Below are positions 35 to 27,942 of a stretch of 64,000 nt of DNA, one piece after another. Source of the stretch: Methanosarcina horonobensis HB-1 = JCM 15518 (lineage in GTDB: Archaea > Halobacteriota > Methanosarcinia > Methanosarcinales > Methanosarcinaceae); contig NZ_CP009516.1 in NCBI RefSeq assembly GCF_000970285.1, positions 2,149,036-2,213,035 of the forward strand, in the 5' to 3' direction. Both the position numbers and the translations under genes were made by a program. Within the stretch, counting starts at the first letter, position 1, and every line of letters starts with the position of its first letter. Below the pieces are notes generated by a model. That model saw only the letters and a program-made list of their open reading frames with translations. It did no database searches and was not told the DNA's origin.

Positions 35-1775
35 TCAATACTCCCAGAAATAGCCTTTTTCTCTTACAACAAGTATTGTAAACATACCCCCAAAGATTAG
101 CATATCAAAGACAAAAGTATTCAGCCCTGTACCTTCCGTAAGTCCCAGGTAGCTCATCCCTAAGTATAGTAGCCCGAAAGATTCGGCCACGATCAAGATA
201 CCCAGCAATACCGCAACTTTTGCCAGTGATGCCATGTTCCATGACTCAGGTTTCCTGAAAGGTTTGACGTTGTCCGTTGCTATAGATATAGTGACGAAGT
301 CGATCAAAAAAAGTAGCAGGACGATCTCAAAAGCACCTATGACATATTTCCCGGTAATCAGAAATGCAAGGACGACAAACAGCACTATTTCAAAAGTTTT
401 TACTATCTTATTTAAAATCCATGAAGAGATTCGCTGGTGTATTTGCCTTCCCGTTTTAACCAGCTCAATTATCTCGGCAAGACCCTCATCAGTAAGAACA
501 ACACTTGCGGCTCCTTTTGCAATGTCCGTAGCATTACTTACTGCAATTCCCACTTCTGCCTGCCTTAATGCAGGGGCATCATTCACGCCGTCTCCGGTCA
601 TACCAACGATGTGTTCTTTTTCCTGGAGGTTTTTCACTATAAGATACTTATCTTCAGGGTAAATTTCAGCAAACCCACCACTTTGCTCGCTGGCCTGTGC
701 AGCTTTTTTTGTTGGCAAGCCTTCCATCTCTCTTAGCTCAGCCACCTTGATGATTTTTCCTTCAATGCCTGCTTCTTCTGCAACTTCTTTTGCTACTGAC
801 AACGCGTCTCCAGTAAGCATCTTTGTTGTAATTCCAAGTTCTTTAAGCTCAGCGATTAGCTTCGCAGATTCTGGTCTAGGTGCATCATAGAGGGCTACCA
901 TACCAACAAGTTCCATCTGAGATCCTGTTTTTTTCACTGCGACAGCCAGAGTTCTGTAACCCTTTTCGGCATACTCCCTAATTTTTTCCTCCAGAATAGA
1001 AATCCTTCCGGCATCATAGCTGCATAAAGTTGCCAGCACCCTTACTGCTCCCTTGGCCACCTGGATGCGTTCATCATCCTTTTGTACGACTGATTCTGTT
1101 CTTCGGATAGATGGATCAAAAGGAGTGAAGCTGATCTGGGCATACTCAGCTGTATCGAGGCCTTTTTGCTTGGCGGCTTCAATGAAAGCAACATCAATGG
1201 GATCCTGGTTTGCTTCACTGGATGCAAGTGCTCCATAAAGAATCGCATCTTCTTTAGTATAGCTGTCAAGCTCGGTTATGTCGGCTACTGAAAGCTTGTT
1301 CAAAGTAATTGTGCCTGTTTTATCTACGCACAGTACATCCATCATGGACGCATCCTGCGAAGCATTGAGTCTTTGTTACCAGCACACCCTTCTTAGCTAG
1401 CTCCAGCGAGCCCAGGGCCATGGTCACCGTGAACATGGTAGGCAGTGCAACGGGAATAGCTGAGACAAGTAATATCAGTGCCAATGGCAATATCTCTACA
1501 AGGTTAATGCCCCTGATATAAGATACAGAAAAGGCGATGGCGAGCAAAACGACTACCAGCGAAATAAGCCACTTGAGCAGGTTAGTTATGACTTCTTCGA
1601 TATACATTCTTGGTCTGGCAATATGAACAAGTTGTGCTGTCCGGCCGAAATAAGTCTGCACACCAGTAGATACTACCACACCGGTAGCCTCACCTTTCCG
1701 GATAACCGAACCTGAATAGAGAATATCCCCTTTTAAACAAGGGATAACGGCTCCATACAGTACTGACATCTAACC
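35..1775 (-). pseudogene. P-type (plasma-membrane H+-type) ATPase remnant
   Basis: The lower part (35-1345) reads through the phosphorylation motif CVDKTGT, the TGD motif and the hinge GDGVNDAPAL (about residues 6-12, 178-180 and 251-260 of that piece), followed by membrane segments, as in P3A proton pumps. The upstream piece (1320-1769) carries the GDILYSGSV/KGEATGVVV actuator region and two membrane helices, but lies in another frame. The frameshift falls just before the DKTGT motif, near 1345-1370. Homology stops abruptly near 1775 at the SALTGE-like segment, so the whole N-terminus is missing. The C-terminus ends at REKGYFWEY, before the last helices expected in the family. It would have coupled ATP hydrolysis to cation export, but it cannot make an intact pump. 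Sequencing error could explain the single frameshift but not the missing ends. Confidence 0.85.
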
Positions 1776-1780
1776 AAACT

Positions 1781-2135
1781 GTCACTGCTGTCGTCTTTGC
1801 AGCCGGCTGTGCTGAAAAATACCCGAAAATATAACTGTTAACAACACAACTCAAGTTAATGAAACAATGGAAACTGGTCAGATAGTAACCGAGGCTGACA
1901 GCGGAAAAACCATACCTCAAAAACGGAGAGAACTTTACCCTAAATTCTATTGAATGATTCTGCAGCAGGCTATGAATGGGAACTTAACCCGAGCAATGGG
2001 CTCACCATTCTCGGCGAGAAATATGTAGAGCACCCAGATCCTCAACACCTTGAAGGTGTCCCTGGAACTCATTCATGGTTGATCGAGGCTGTGGCTCCGG
2101 GCAACCAGAAAGTAATTGGCACATATGAAAGATAA
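1781..2135 (+). pseudogene. Chagasin-like (I42) cysteine-protease inhibitor lipoprotein remnant
   Basis: Joining three frames gives a lipoprotein-like start VVFAAGC (about 1781-1815), a linker rich in N/T, then TEADSGKT, LKNGENFTL and finally GYEWELNPSNGL and GVPGTHSWLIEAV (1950-2135). The NPTTGY-like, GVPGT and GS/NQKVTGTY segments are typical of chagasin/I42 inhibitors, which block papain-type proteases. Frameshifts lie near 1825 and 1945, and the protein ends early after GTYER. No start codon or full signal peptide is present: the homology begins directly against the truncated 5' end of the divergent ATPase remnant. Family assignment is from remembered motifs. Confidence 0.6.
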
Positions 2136-2232
2136 GAGATCGTGGGAGAACACAACCTATATAGAGGATCATTTTACTCTCAACATTAATGTTATCTGAG
2201 AAGTCTTTGAAGTCTATTTCTTATGGTTATTT

Positions 2233-2595
2233 TCAGACAGCTTTGGAATGTTCCACGTACTCTATTACCGACCCGTCAGGATGTTTTACTGTCATGTTCC
2301 TGCCGGTCGGAACTTTCGCAGGTTCCCGGACAATTTCTGCTCCTTTTTCTTCCAGAAAAGCCCTGAAATCATCTAGAGAATCAACAAGAAACGTAGCCTG
2401 TGTGCTTCTAAAAGGTTTCAGAGCTTCTTCAGAGCCGGCTATAAGTAAAATATCTCCTATCTGAGCCAGTTCTAGGCCGATTTGCTGAATTTGAAAACGT
2501 ATGATTGCAGGTGTGCCGAGGAGTTTTTCGTAGAATTCGAGGACGGAACTCAGGTCGTTTATGTAGAGGCGGGAGAGAGTTTGAAGGATTTTCAT
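2233..2595 (-). CDS. VOC-family (glyoxalase/bleomycin-resistance-like) protein
   Basis: This 120-residue protein is the length of a single VOC unit. It starts with the LSRLYINDLSSVLEFYEKLLG segment typical of the first beta-alpha-beta module and ends with a DGSVIEYVEH motif, where a metal-binding Glu is usually found. VOC proteins act on small molecules (isomerases, dioxygenases, drug-binding proteins), and the substrate cannot be told from sequence. It stands alone between two pseudogenes and appears cytoplasmic with no signal peptide. The start is the ATG at 2595. The short length and intact frame suggest it is functional, in contrast to its neighbours. Confidence 0.8.
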   Translation of the reverse strand: MKILQTLSRLYINDLSSVLEFYEKLLGTPAIIRFQIQQIGLELAQIGDILLIAGSEEALKPFRSTQATFLVDSLDDFRAFLEEKGAEIVREPAKVPTGRNMTVKHPDGSVIEYVEHSKAV

Positions 2596-2835
2596 ATTAC
2601 TGGGCTCTTTTTAACTTCTGTCAATTCTCTAAGTTTTTAAACTCTTATTCGTGAATAAGCTGGCACTTCTGTGTAAATCTGTTTCAATCGAGTTCTTCAT
2701 TATAAAACTAATTATTCCAGATTGGAAATTCCCTTAGATTCTACGTCCAAGAAGAAAAGATTTTAAAATCTAAGTAAATATTTAACTAGCTCTTTACGTC
2801 TGATTTTACAAATAAGGGATAAAAGGAAGGAAGAA

Positions 2836-24687: not shown

Positions 24688-25581
24688 TTAACTCTCGATC
24701 CCATACTTTTCCCTGATCTCCGATTCTTTTAAAACCTTAAGCTCGAGCTTCTCAAGAATCTCGGAGATCCTGTTCCGATCTTCGCTTTTCATTGATTTCC
24801 TGTCAAAATAAGCAAACTCAGCACCGGATTTCTCAATAGCCTGCCTGATCAGTGCTTCGTCCACAAATTCTAACTGGTACTTGGGGAAGTTGTGACCAAA
24901 AGAGATTTCGGTTTCAAGCAAAAGTCCTGTCTGGCGCATTGCATAGTGTCCTCCCCCAAAGCCGAGAGCTGCAGGCACTTTTTCAAGAGAAACTGCAAGA
25001 ATAGCTTTTGCGGCAACCTCTCCGGCTTCAGGGTCTTTCCACTGTGCTTCGGTACTGCCGATTTCGGCATAGACGGATGGAACTGAGAGTTCCGTCGGGC
25101 CGTGGTGGGTAACTTCAAGGGTAACGTCATATTTAAGCCCTTTTTCTCCGGCAAGCCGCTTCATTTCTTTAAGGATTGACTTCATTGCGGCAGGTGAAGA
25201 GACTGCAAGCTCTTTTGGGTGCCCTCCAAGCCTTGCTTCTCCTGAAGGGTTTCCCGTGCAGTGTACGGTTAAAGAATTGATCTCTTCTTTGCTCCTGTGC
25301 TTGGAGGCAAAGATTATCAGAGAGGCTGGAAATCCTGACGCTTCCAGCTTTCTGTCAAGTCCGTCCTGAAAGACATGAATCTCCTCTATATCAACAAGTC
25401 TGAATCTTCCATCCGCAGATTCTCGGGCTGCCGAAAATCCGGATTCAAGAGGGAGTTTGAGGTCTTTCCATTCTCTCAGGTTCAAAAGATGAGTTTTGAT
25501 GTTCTGGCTGGCAAGGTCTGGGGCAGAACAAATGATTGTAATTCTTGAGTTACTCTCATTTTCTGGATTCATATCTGTCAT
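24688..25581 (-). CDS. dtdA: D-aminoacyl-tRNA deacylase (archaeal/plant type)
   Basis: The 297-residue protein matches the archaeal DtdA/GEK1 family. It has SKHRSKEEINSLTVHCTGN, the metal-site segment EVTHHGPTELSVPSVYAEIG, ALGFGGGHYAMRQT and a final region AEFAYFDRKSM. The enzyme removes D-amino acids wrongly attached to tRNA, protecting translation; it is cytoplasmic and zinc-dependent. The start could be ATG 25581 or the ATG three codons later. It is intact and monocistronic. Confidence 0.92.
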   Translation of the reverse strand: MTDMNPENESNSRITIICSAPDLASQNIKTHLLNLREWKDLKLPLESGFSAARESADGRFRLVDIEEIHVFQDGLDRKLEASGFPASLIIFASKHRSKEEINSLTVHCTGNPSGEARLGGHPKELAVSSPAAMKSILKEMKRLAGEKGLKYDVTLEVTHHGPTELSVPSVYAEIGSTEAQWKDPEAGEVAAKAILAVSLEKVPAALGFGGGHYAMRQTGLLLETEISFGHNFPKYQLEFVDEALIRQAIEKSGAEFAYFDRKSMKSEDRNRISEILEKLELKVLKESEIREKYGIES

Positions 25582-25718
25582 TTTCGGATCAGTCCGGTTT
25601 TTTTCTGAATTTATCCTGAACCTATTCTGAACTTTCGTTCAGAAACAATTTCGTTCAAAAACAATTGCCTTTAGAATTCGTAAAGATAGATAAAACCAAC
25701 CCCAAAAATAGAATAAAT

Positions 25719-26415
25719 TCGGTCAGAACAATCCAACCTCAGAAGAGTATGGAATGGTGTACTTGACATAATTGATGATTGGGCTGCCGAGCGTGAACTG
25801 TACTGTGTTCACAACCACGATGATATCATGGGTGCTTGCGTAGCACGTTTCCAAGAAAACACAGTAAGGCTTGCAATGCTGATCGAACTTGGTGAGATCC
25901 CGGAACTCACAAGGAAGATGCCAACTGAGCAAATCCTCGAATTCAAAATCTCACGCAGGGCTGTGGAAATAGCACTCCACATGATTGATGCTGTGTATAT
26001 GCCATATACACAGAAGCTAATTGCAAAGCTCCACGATGATAGAAGCGGTACTTGCGTTTCAGGTATTGCCAATGACGTGGTTAGGGTTGAAGAAAAGCTA
26101 ATGGATACGTTGAAAATAGGACAGTGCGAAGCCTATCGCGAGTGTCACATGAAGGTGGCACAGTTCAACGAGTGTGTAGACTCATTGTAGTTGTCTGGTG
26201 CAGTAGAGTTTGCAACAGTACTGAACAGACAAAACAATCGTGTAGAGTGGTTGGTCTACATACCTCGTGAGCTTAGAGACCCAAAGTTCCAACATAACTA
26301 CACTCATACAAAGTTCTCAGAGTACACATGCGGAATTTGTTTTAACTATTCCTCACCTACTGTATTTAAACAGTATGAAAACACTTCTAATGCTCCAAAG
26401 ATGGCAGAGTGGTAA
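25719..26415 (+). pseudogene. C-terminal part of a DUF3987/primase-helicase-like protein, interrupted by in-frame UAG
   Basis: After a TAA near 25716 the frame is open to an amber codon at 26188-26190, then continues in the same frame to TAA at 26413-26415. The first part has FQENTVRLAMLIELGE and ISRRAVEIALHMIDAVYMPY, resembling the C-terminal helical part of DUF3987/plasmid-type primase-helicases. Next comes a winged-helix-like segment, HMKVAQFNECVDSL-UAG-LSGAVEF. The UAG sits inside that winged helix, where a Lys or Ile is common. The N-terminus and a conventional start are absent (the first ATG is 25828). In Methanosarcina UAG can be read as pyrrolysine; otherwise this is a nonsense-mutated mobile-element fragment. 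The family call is by motif memory. Confidence 0.55.
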
Positions 26416-26735: not shown

Positions 26736-27451
26736 AAGAAATCAAATTGCGGGCGGCCACCCCACCCTAAAGGATGGGGTATGCTTCGGGCCGCCCGCCC
26801 GGTTGTTCTGGTAATTAGAAATCATCAAGTCTTCTTTGCTTGGATCTCATGAACCTATGCAATCGAGACTCTTCACTCGGTTTTCCTTGCGATTCTTTAA
26901 TGTAATGCTTAATTGTATCAGCAGTTACGTTTCCAACGGATCGATAGAACTTTCCACTTGACCATAGATTTCCACCCCAATATCGTTTTTTAAGATCAGG
27001 ATGAAGCTTGAATAAGCTGTAAGAACTACCTCCTTTCAAATACTGAATTACCTCTGACAGAGAATTACTTGGATGAAATTCAAGAAACAAATGAACATGA
27101 TCATCTACTACTTCCATTGCATGTATTTTGTAGCCATTTTTAGCACAAATTATACTGAGAATCAACTCGCAATCCTTTTTAATTCTCTTATTGTAGAATA
27201 TATTGTATCGACTTAGGCACCAACACGATGTGGTAAGTAATCTGACCATAGCCATGGCTAAAACTGCGTAATTCCAACTTATATCACATCCTAGCCAAAG
27301 GTGGCTGGCACCACCTCTGGTTATGGTGCCAAAAAAACCTTATTTTACAAAAAAAGTGAGGATTTAGATAATTAAAGTGAAAAAACGAAGAGGCGAGGGT
27401 TCACTTCATCCCCGACCTGAAGGACGGGGTATTCGTGACCCTCTGCGCTCC
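26736..27451 (-). mobile_element. IS200-like element, copy A (716 bp)
   Basis: The element has a long imperfect hairpin at one end: GGGCGGCC (26751-26758) with GGCCGCCC (26789-26796), and inner arms ACCCCA/TGGGGT. At the other end is a second hairpin (AGGGTTCAC at 27396-27404 with GTGACCCT at 27435-27442). A single Y1-transposase gene reads on the minus strand, with no tnpB. These subterminal hairpins are what IS200/IS605 transposases recognise. It is closely related to copy B at 37096-37812. Confidence 0.85.
26815..27277 (-). pseudogene. tnpA: IS200 TnpA (Y1 transposase), frameshifted
   Basis: The protein shows the HUH motif HVHLFLEF, the WGGNLWSSGKFYRSVGN signature and the catalytic Tyr in the late helix DTIKHYI. 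It ends SKQRRLDDF. The N-terminus begins in another frame from TTG 27277 (LRSFSHGYGQITYHIVL) and is joined to the rest only if two bases missing after the VPK codons (near 27212) are restored, as comparison with copy B shows. Single-strand DNA transposition by this copy is therefore probably lost. Confidence 0.85.
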
Positions 27452-27942
27452 ATTAGTAATAAACGAAGATAAGAGAAGCGAATTACGGGAACAAACTCAG
27501 CAGGTGCTGCTATCTGCAGTACCTTGACCTGTAATTGGCATTATCCGTACCTGATTAGTGTTTGCGCCTGATCAGTATCTGCTTTTATACTTACTGTAGG
27601 CAGATTGGAGTGAAGTACATTAAAACAAGTTTTGAGTGGGTTCTGAGGAGATCTGGGGAATTGTTGGAATTAAAAATGATAGTACTTAAGGTAAAGTACA
27701 ATGTTCGCGGAGGCACTACTTATCTTCAGAATCCACTCAGCGTTAAATAATTTTTTATCGCTAACTATTTAGTTATTTTGAATCTATTCTACTTAACTGG
27801 AGTCAGAAACCGGCATATTCAGGAAAGAGCTGGCCACTATTTCTACCATGTCGTATTTATTTAAGAAAAATATTCTATTACCTGTTCTTTTATTACAATT
27901 AATAGAAAAAACAAACTCAGTTGTATACAGACGGAAGAAGCA
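27452..27942. other. Spacer after IS200 copy A
   Basis: A 62-codon frame (27562-27750) has no recognisable domain, and its composition does not stand out. I see nothing else I can support before the structured-RNA candidate. Confidence 0.25.

Follow-up and report, generated by a model that had tools for sequence, protein, structure and literature searches.

A 5'-truncated relic of a putative DUF3987 helicase gene with a probably neutral in-frame TAG at a chromosomal breakpoint of Methanosarcina horonobensis

In-frame UAG codons in mobile genes of Methanosarcina have been known since 2005. Published cases include transposases of the genus, as well as Thg1 of M. acetivorans, in which the UAG is neutral (PMC2933860, PMC8211752), and further published work concerns UAG read-through and in-frame UAG codons in Methanosarcina (PMC3639795). 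When a UAG was introduced into a reporter in M. acetivorans, read-through amounted to 20-30% (PMC2933860). For the DUF3987 proteins, a role as helicases in the replication of mobile-element replicons has been predicted (PMC5862659). Here we describe a DUF3987-like sequence interrupted by TAG in a stretch of 64,000 nucleotides from M. horonobensis HB-1 = JCM 15518 (contig NZ_CP009516.1, positions 2,149,036 to 2,213,035), which we call the window and whose numbering is used throughout. The original prediction for this locus proposed a functional mobile protein of a new, pyrrolysine-tolerant type; the published transposases and Thg1 (PMC2933860, PMC8211752) already take away its novelty. We consider it very probable (about 0.88) that the locus is a 5'-truncated relic of the DUF3987 replication-helicase gene of an integrative element, lying at a breakpoint, with a TAG that is most likely a neutral nonsense mutation.

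The host genome comprises 5.02 Mb in one contig. Within the window, an open frame on the plus strand runs from 25717 to 26415, directly after a TAA at 25714-25716. Its single internal stop is the TAG at 26188-26190, and it is closed by a TAA at 26413-26415. There are thus two open segments in one frame with only the TAG between them, as originally predicted, but the predicted start at 25719 does not hold, since that position belongs to another frame and the possible starts of this one are 25717 and 25720. The first in-frame ATG is at 25828, with none before it. The segment 5' of the TAG (25717-26187, the head) matches DUF3987 proteins with an E value of 3e-9 and 48% identity across 54 residues. 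The best relative, P0002, is a complete protein of 537 residues from another genus of the same family and is itself a DUF3987 member (83.2 bits). The fragment by itself scores 11.6 bits against Pfam PF13148 (DUF3987), below the gathering cut-off of 27, and neither the head nor the 3' continuation (26191-26415, 74 codons plus TAA, the tail) gives a family match in a Pfam search when taken alone. Alignment with the C-terminal portion of complete DUF3987 members identifies this sequence as the last ~230 residues of a putative replicative helicase of ~540 residues. The 537-residue relative is encoded near a tyrosine integrase, so that a mobile-element origin, as originally predicted, is well supported. 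No relative was found in scans of genome contigs and viral contigs with either a protein or an alignment query, or in the plasmid and phage records searched, and our searches returned no close intact relative (>50% identity).

The match to the best relative begins at residue 291 of 537, such that approximately 290 residues are absent. The start codon and the P-loop-like segment of the ATPase core are missing from the relic, and the DNA upstream is instead a conserved chromosomal flank. This upstream DNA is common to eight genomes of the genus, in which the BLAST matches end at 25702-25738. In an alignment of the shared flank, a block of conserved sequence closes with '...aaaaccaacccc' and the genomes diverge from about 25710 onward, at the beginning of the relic; with the DUF3987 match detectable from about 25750, the truncation point can be placed within 25703-25750. 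The conserved gene to the left (24688-25581, minus strand), a candidate D-aminoacyl-tRNA deacylase gene, is shared with related genomes together with its upstream region up to about 25703-25738. A search of the host genome for other pieces of the DUF3987 gene found none, the relic is present as a single copy, and the fragment is absent from all 30 other genomes of the genus that were searched.

To the right of the relic lies an AT-rich stretch, followed by an IS200-type element of 725 bp at 26739-27463 (minus strand). Shared chromosomal sequence has returned by about 27925 in one relative, whose genome has about 50 kb between the operon on the right and the gene on the left. This separation suggests that the relic sits at a rearrangement point. 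We found no Rfam match between 24600 and 28600, ARAGORN detected no tRNA in the window as a candidate marker of an attachment site, and a repeat search revealed nothing resembling attachment repeats. The Y1 transposase frame of the IS200-type element (26815-27255) is frameshifted at its N-terminus relative to intact copies in the genome (L081 and L083). The whole element is 100% identical to a second, equally defective copy in the genome (L080), which suggests recent transposition of the defective form, perhaps in trans. Elsewhere in the window, a P-type ATPase-like gene at 35-1769 (minus strand) appears to be spread over two frames (35-1345 and 1320-1769) and is possibly broken too.

One reading of the frame is that ordinary termination at the TAG marked the end of the DUF3987 protein, the open stretch after it being a product of chance and not part of the gene. 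The tail alone gives no significant match in searches, as this reading would have it. The codon score of the tail is best in the frame that continues through the TAG but is weak (-0.01 to -0.00 bits per codon). The relic as a whole scores 0.13 in the head and about 0 in the tail, compared with about 0.3 bits per codon for real genes. However, when a family profile was built from 15 relatives with the window sequence left out, the read-through sequence scored 71.5 bits and the head alone 62.6 bits, and the gain of 8.9 bits contributed by the tail exceeded what was obtained with any of 300 shuffled tails (mean 63.7, maximum 70.5; 0/300 reached 71.5 bits). The relatives likewise continue past the TAG position in a shared pattern: the 16 aligned relatives that reach this region have a helix-turn-helix-like C-terminal block in common, in agreement with the winged-helix pattern originally proposed. 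An AlphaFold run without an alignment also returned a helix followed by two strands, but the quality of the model (pLDDT 37) is too low for this to carry weight. Coding resemblance beyond the TAG, as originally predicted, thus has moderate support from these comparisons, the tail is best regarded as the probable C-terminal end of the same truncated gene, and ordinary termination at the TAG is very unlikely.

The pyrrolysine readings begin from the host, which does have the pylTSBCD set that they presuppose. A single cluster contains intact pylS, pylB, pylC and pylD genes together with a tRNA-Pyl (anticodon CTA), the PylB, PylC and PylD matches exceed their cut-offs, and TAG is a rare terminator, ending 9 of 221 sampled long genes (TAA, 116; TGA, 96). 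These features, the published read-through in M. acetivorans (PMC2933860) and the openness of the rest of the frame all favor the view that the living element, before its gene was truncated, already carried the TAG and tolerated it as a neutral pyrrolysine codon, as in Thg1. What argues against it is the residue found in the relatives. The TAG lies where the putative recognition helix ends, at a position for which the original prediction held lysine to be common; lysine occupies the column in only 1 of the 16 relatives, whereas 12 have an aliphatic residue (Ile 6, Leu 5, Val 1) and the remaining three have Gln, Glu and Ser, with no stop codon in any. In addition, the RNA fold downstream of the TAG is ordinary (z -1.3), and the TAG of a second DUF3987 gene, discussed below, lies elsewhere in a gene that is frameshifted. 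We therefore regard prior tolerance in a living element as unlikely, and it is less likely still that the replication helicase of the element's lineage had UAG as a tolerated codon for pyrrolysine, which would have limited the element's replication to pyl-bearing hosts. Should the same TAG turn up in an intact copy, it would reveal a mobile element bound to hosts that decode UAG as pyrrolysine. Alternatively, 25828-26415 might be expressed today through the UAG as a short DNA-binding protein, a domesticated winged-helix fragment. The ATG at 25828 and a frame open apart from the TAG would permit this, but such a start would lie inside the ATPase part, the codon score is low, neither piece alone matches a family and the fragment is absent from the 30 other genomes, all of which make it extremely improbable. 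We also rejected the functional pyrrolysine-tolerant protein of the original prediction: the truncation near 25710 has removed the first half together with the start codon and the ATPase core, leaving no complete gene that extends to both sides of the UAG.

We favor instead a decaying relic. The gene would have lost its first half, with the start codon and P-loop, during decay of the element or rearrangement of the chromosome, and the remainder would have been left stranded at a chromosomal breakpoint beside an IS200-type insertion. In a gene thus freed of selection, the TAG would most likely have arisen as a neutral nonsense mutation, and the relic presumably yields no functional protein. What weighs against this reading is the presence of just one stop in 231 codons, which implies either that the decay is recent or that the TAG predates the truncation. 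The original prediction had offered an AAG-to-TAG nonsense mutation in a dead fragment as its alternative; the dead fragment has proved the better reading, while AAG is not a favored source. TAG can be reached by one base change from candidate codons that include the leucine codon TTG as well as AAG, GAG, CAG and others. Given that the commonest residue class among the relatives is aliphatic, a one-base change from TTG fits, and TTG or another codon is at least as likely a source as AAG; the relatives are too distant for the original codon to be named. If the relic is transcribed, the host tRNA-Pyl would sometimes insert pyrrolysine at this codon, as at any UAG, without function. By itself the relic matters little, being one more remnant of an integrative element, but it carries the caution that a single in-frame TAG in pyl-bearing archaea does not make a pyrrolysine gene. 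A check for truncation, together with a check of the residue found in relatives, settles most such cases.

Frames of this kind are readily found in the host. In a sample of 464 kb of its genome, we looked for at least 100 open codons, one stop and at least 60 further open codons, with both halves scoring best in the frame. This yielded 13 split frames (6 TGA, 5 TAA and 2 TAG), several of them merely adjacent genes, indicating that the pattern is not rare. The second TAG-split frame in the sample is mtbB (L100, 3824-5230), a dimethylamine methyltransferase gene with a known pyrrolysine codon, which resembles the relic in having two open segments in one frame separated solely by a TAG. There the likeness ends: mtbB is complete, matches Pfam strongly both before and after the TAG, adjoins a corrinoid-protein gene and is normal in its codon usage (scores of 0.31 and 0.29 bits per codon, versus 0.13 and about 0 in the relic). 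The corrinoid-protein gene followed by mtbB (L100, 3053-5230; G000:C1, about 1853053-1855230) is a clean positive control from the same genome.

A different comparison is provided by another DUF3987 relative, from another pyl-bearing genus (L077, G021:C1:829000-833000, frame 1296-2627, minus strand), which carries an in-frame TAG at a position occupied by Trp in its sisters; a frameshift also precedes the C-terminal domain of this gene, so that the domain goes on in another frame. This gene is a precedent for TAG in decaying members of the family, at an unrelated place. Compared with the 537-residue DUF3987 protein, the relic has the same C-terminal half, including the helix-turn-helix-like end, and a mobile-element setting, but its N-terminal half and P-loop are gone and the TAG interrupts the frame. 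The transposases and Thg1 of Methanosarcina (PMC2933860, PMC8211752) are similar in that they, too, are mobile or dispensable genes of pyl-bearing hosts with just one in-frame UAG. As far as they have been described, however, they are not 5'-truncated as the relic is, and the UAG of the transposases is conserved among copies, whereas that of the relic is found in a single copy and is not conserved at the same site in its homologs.
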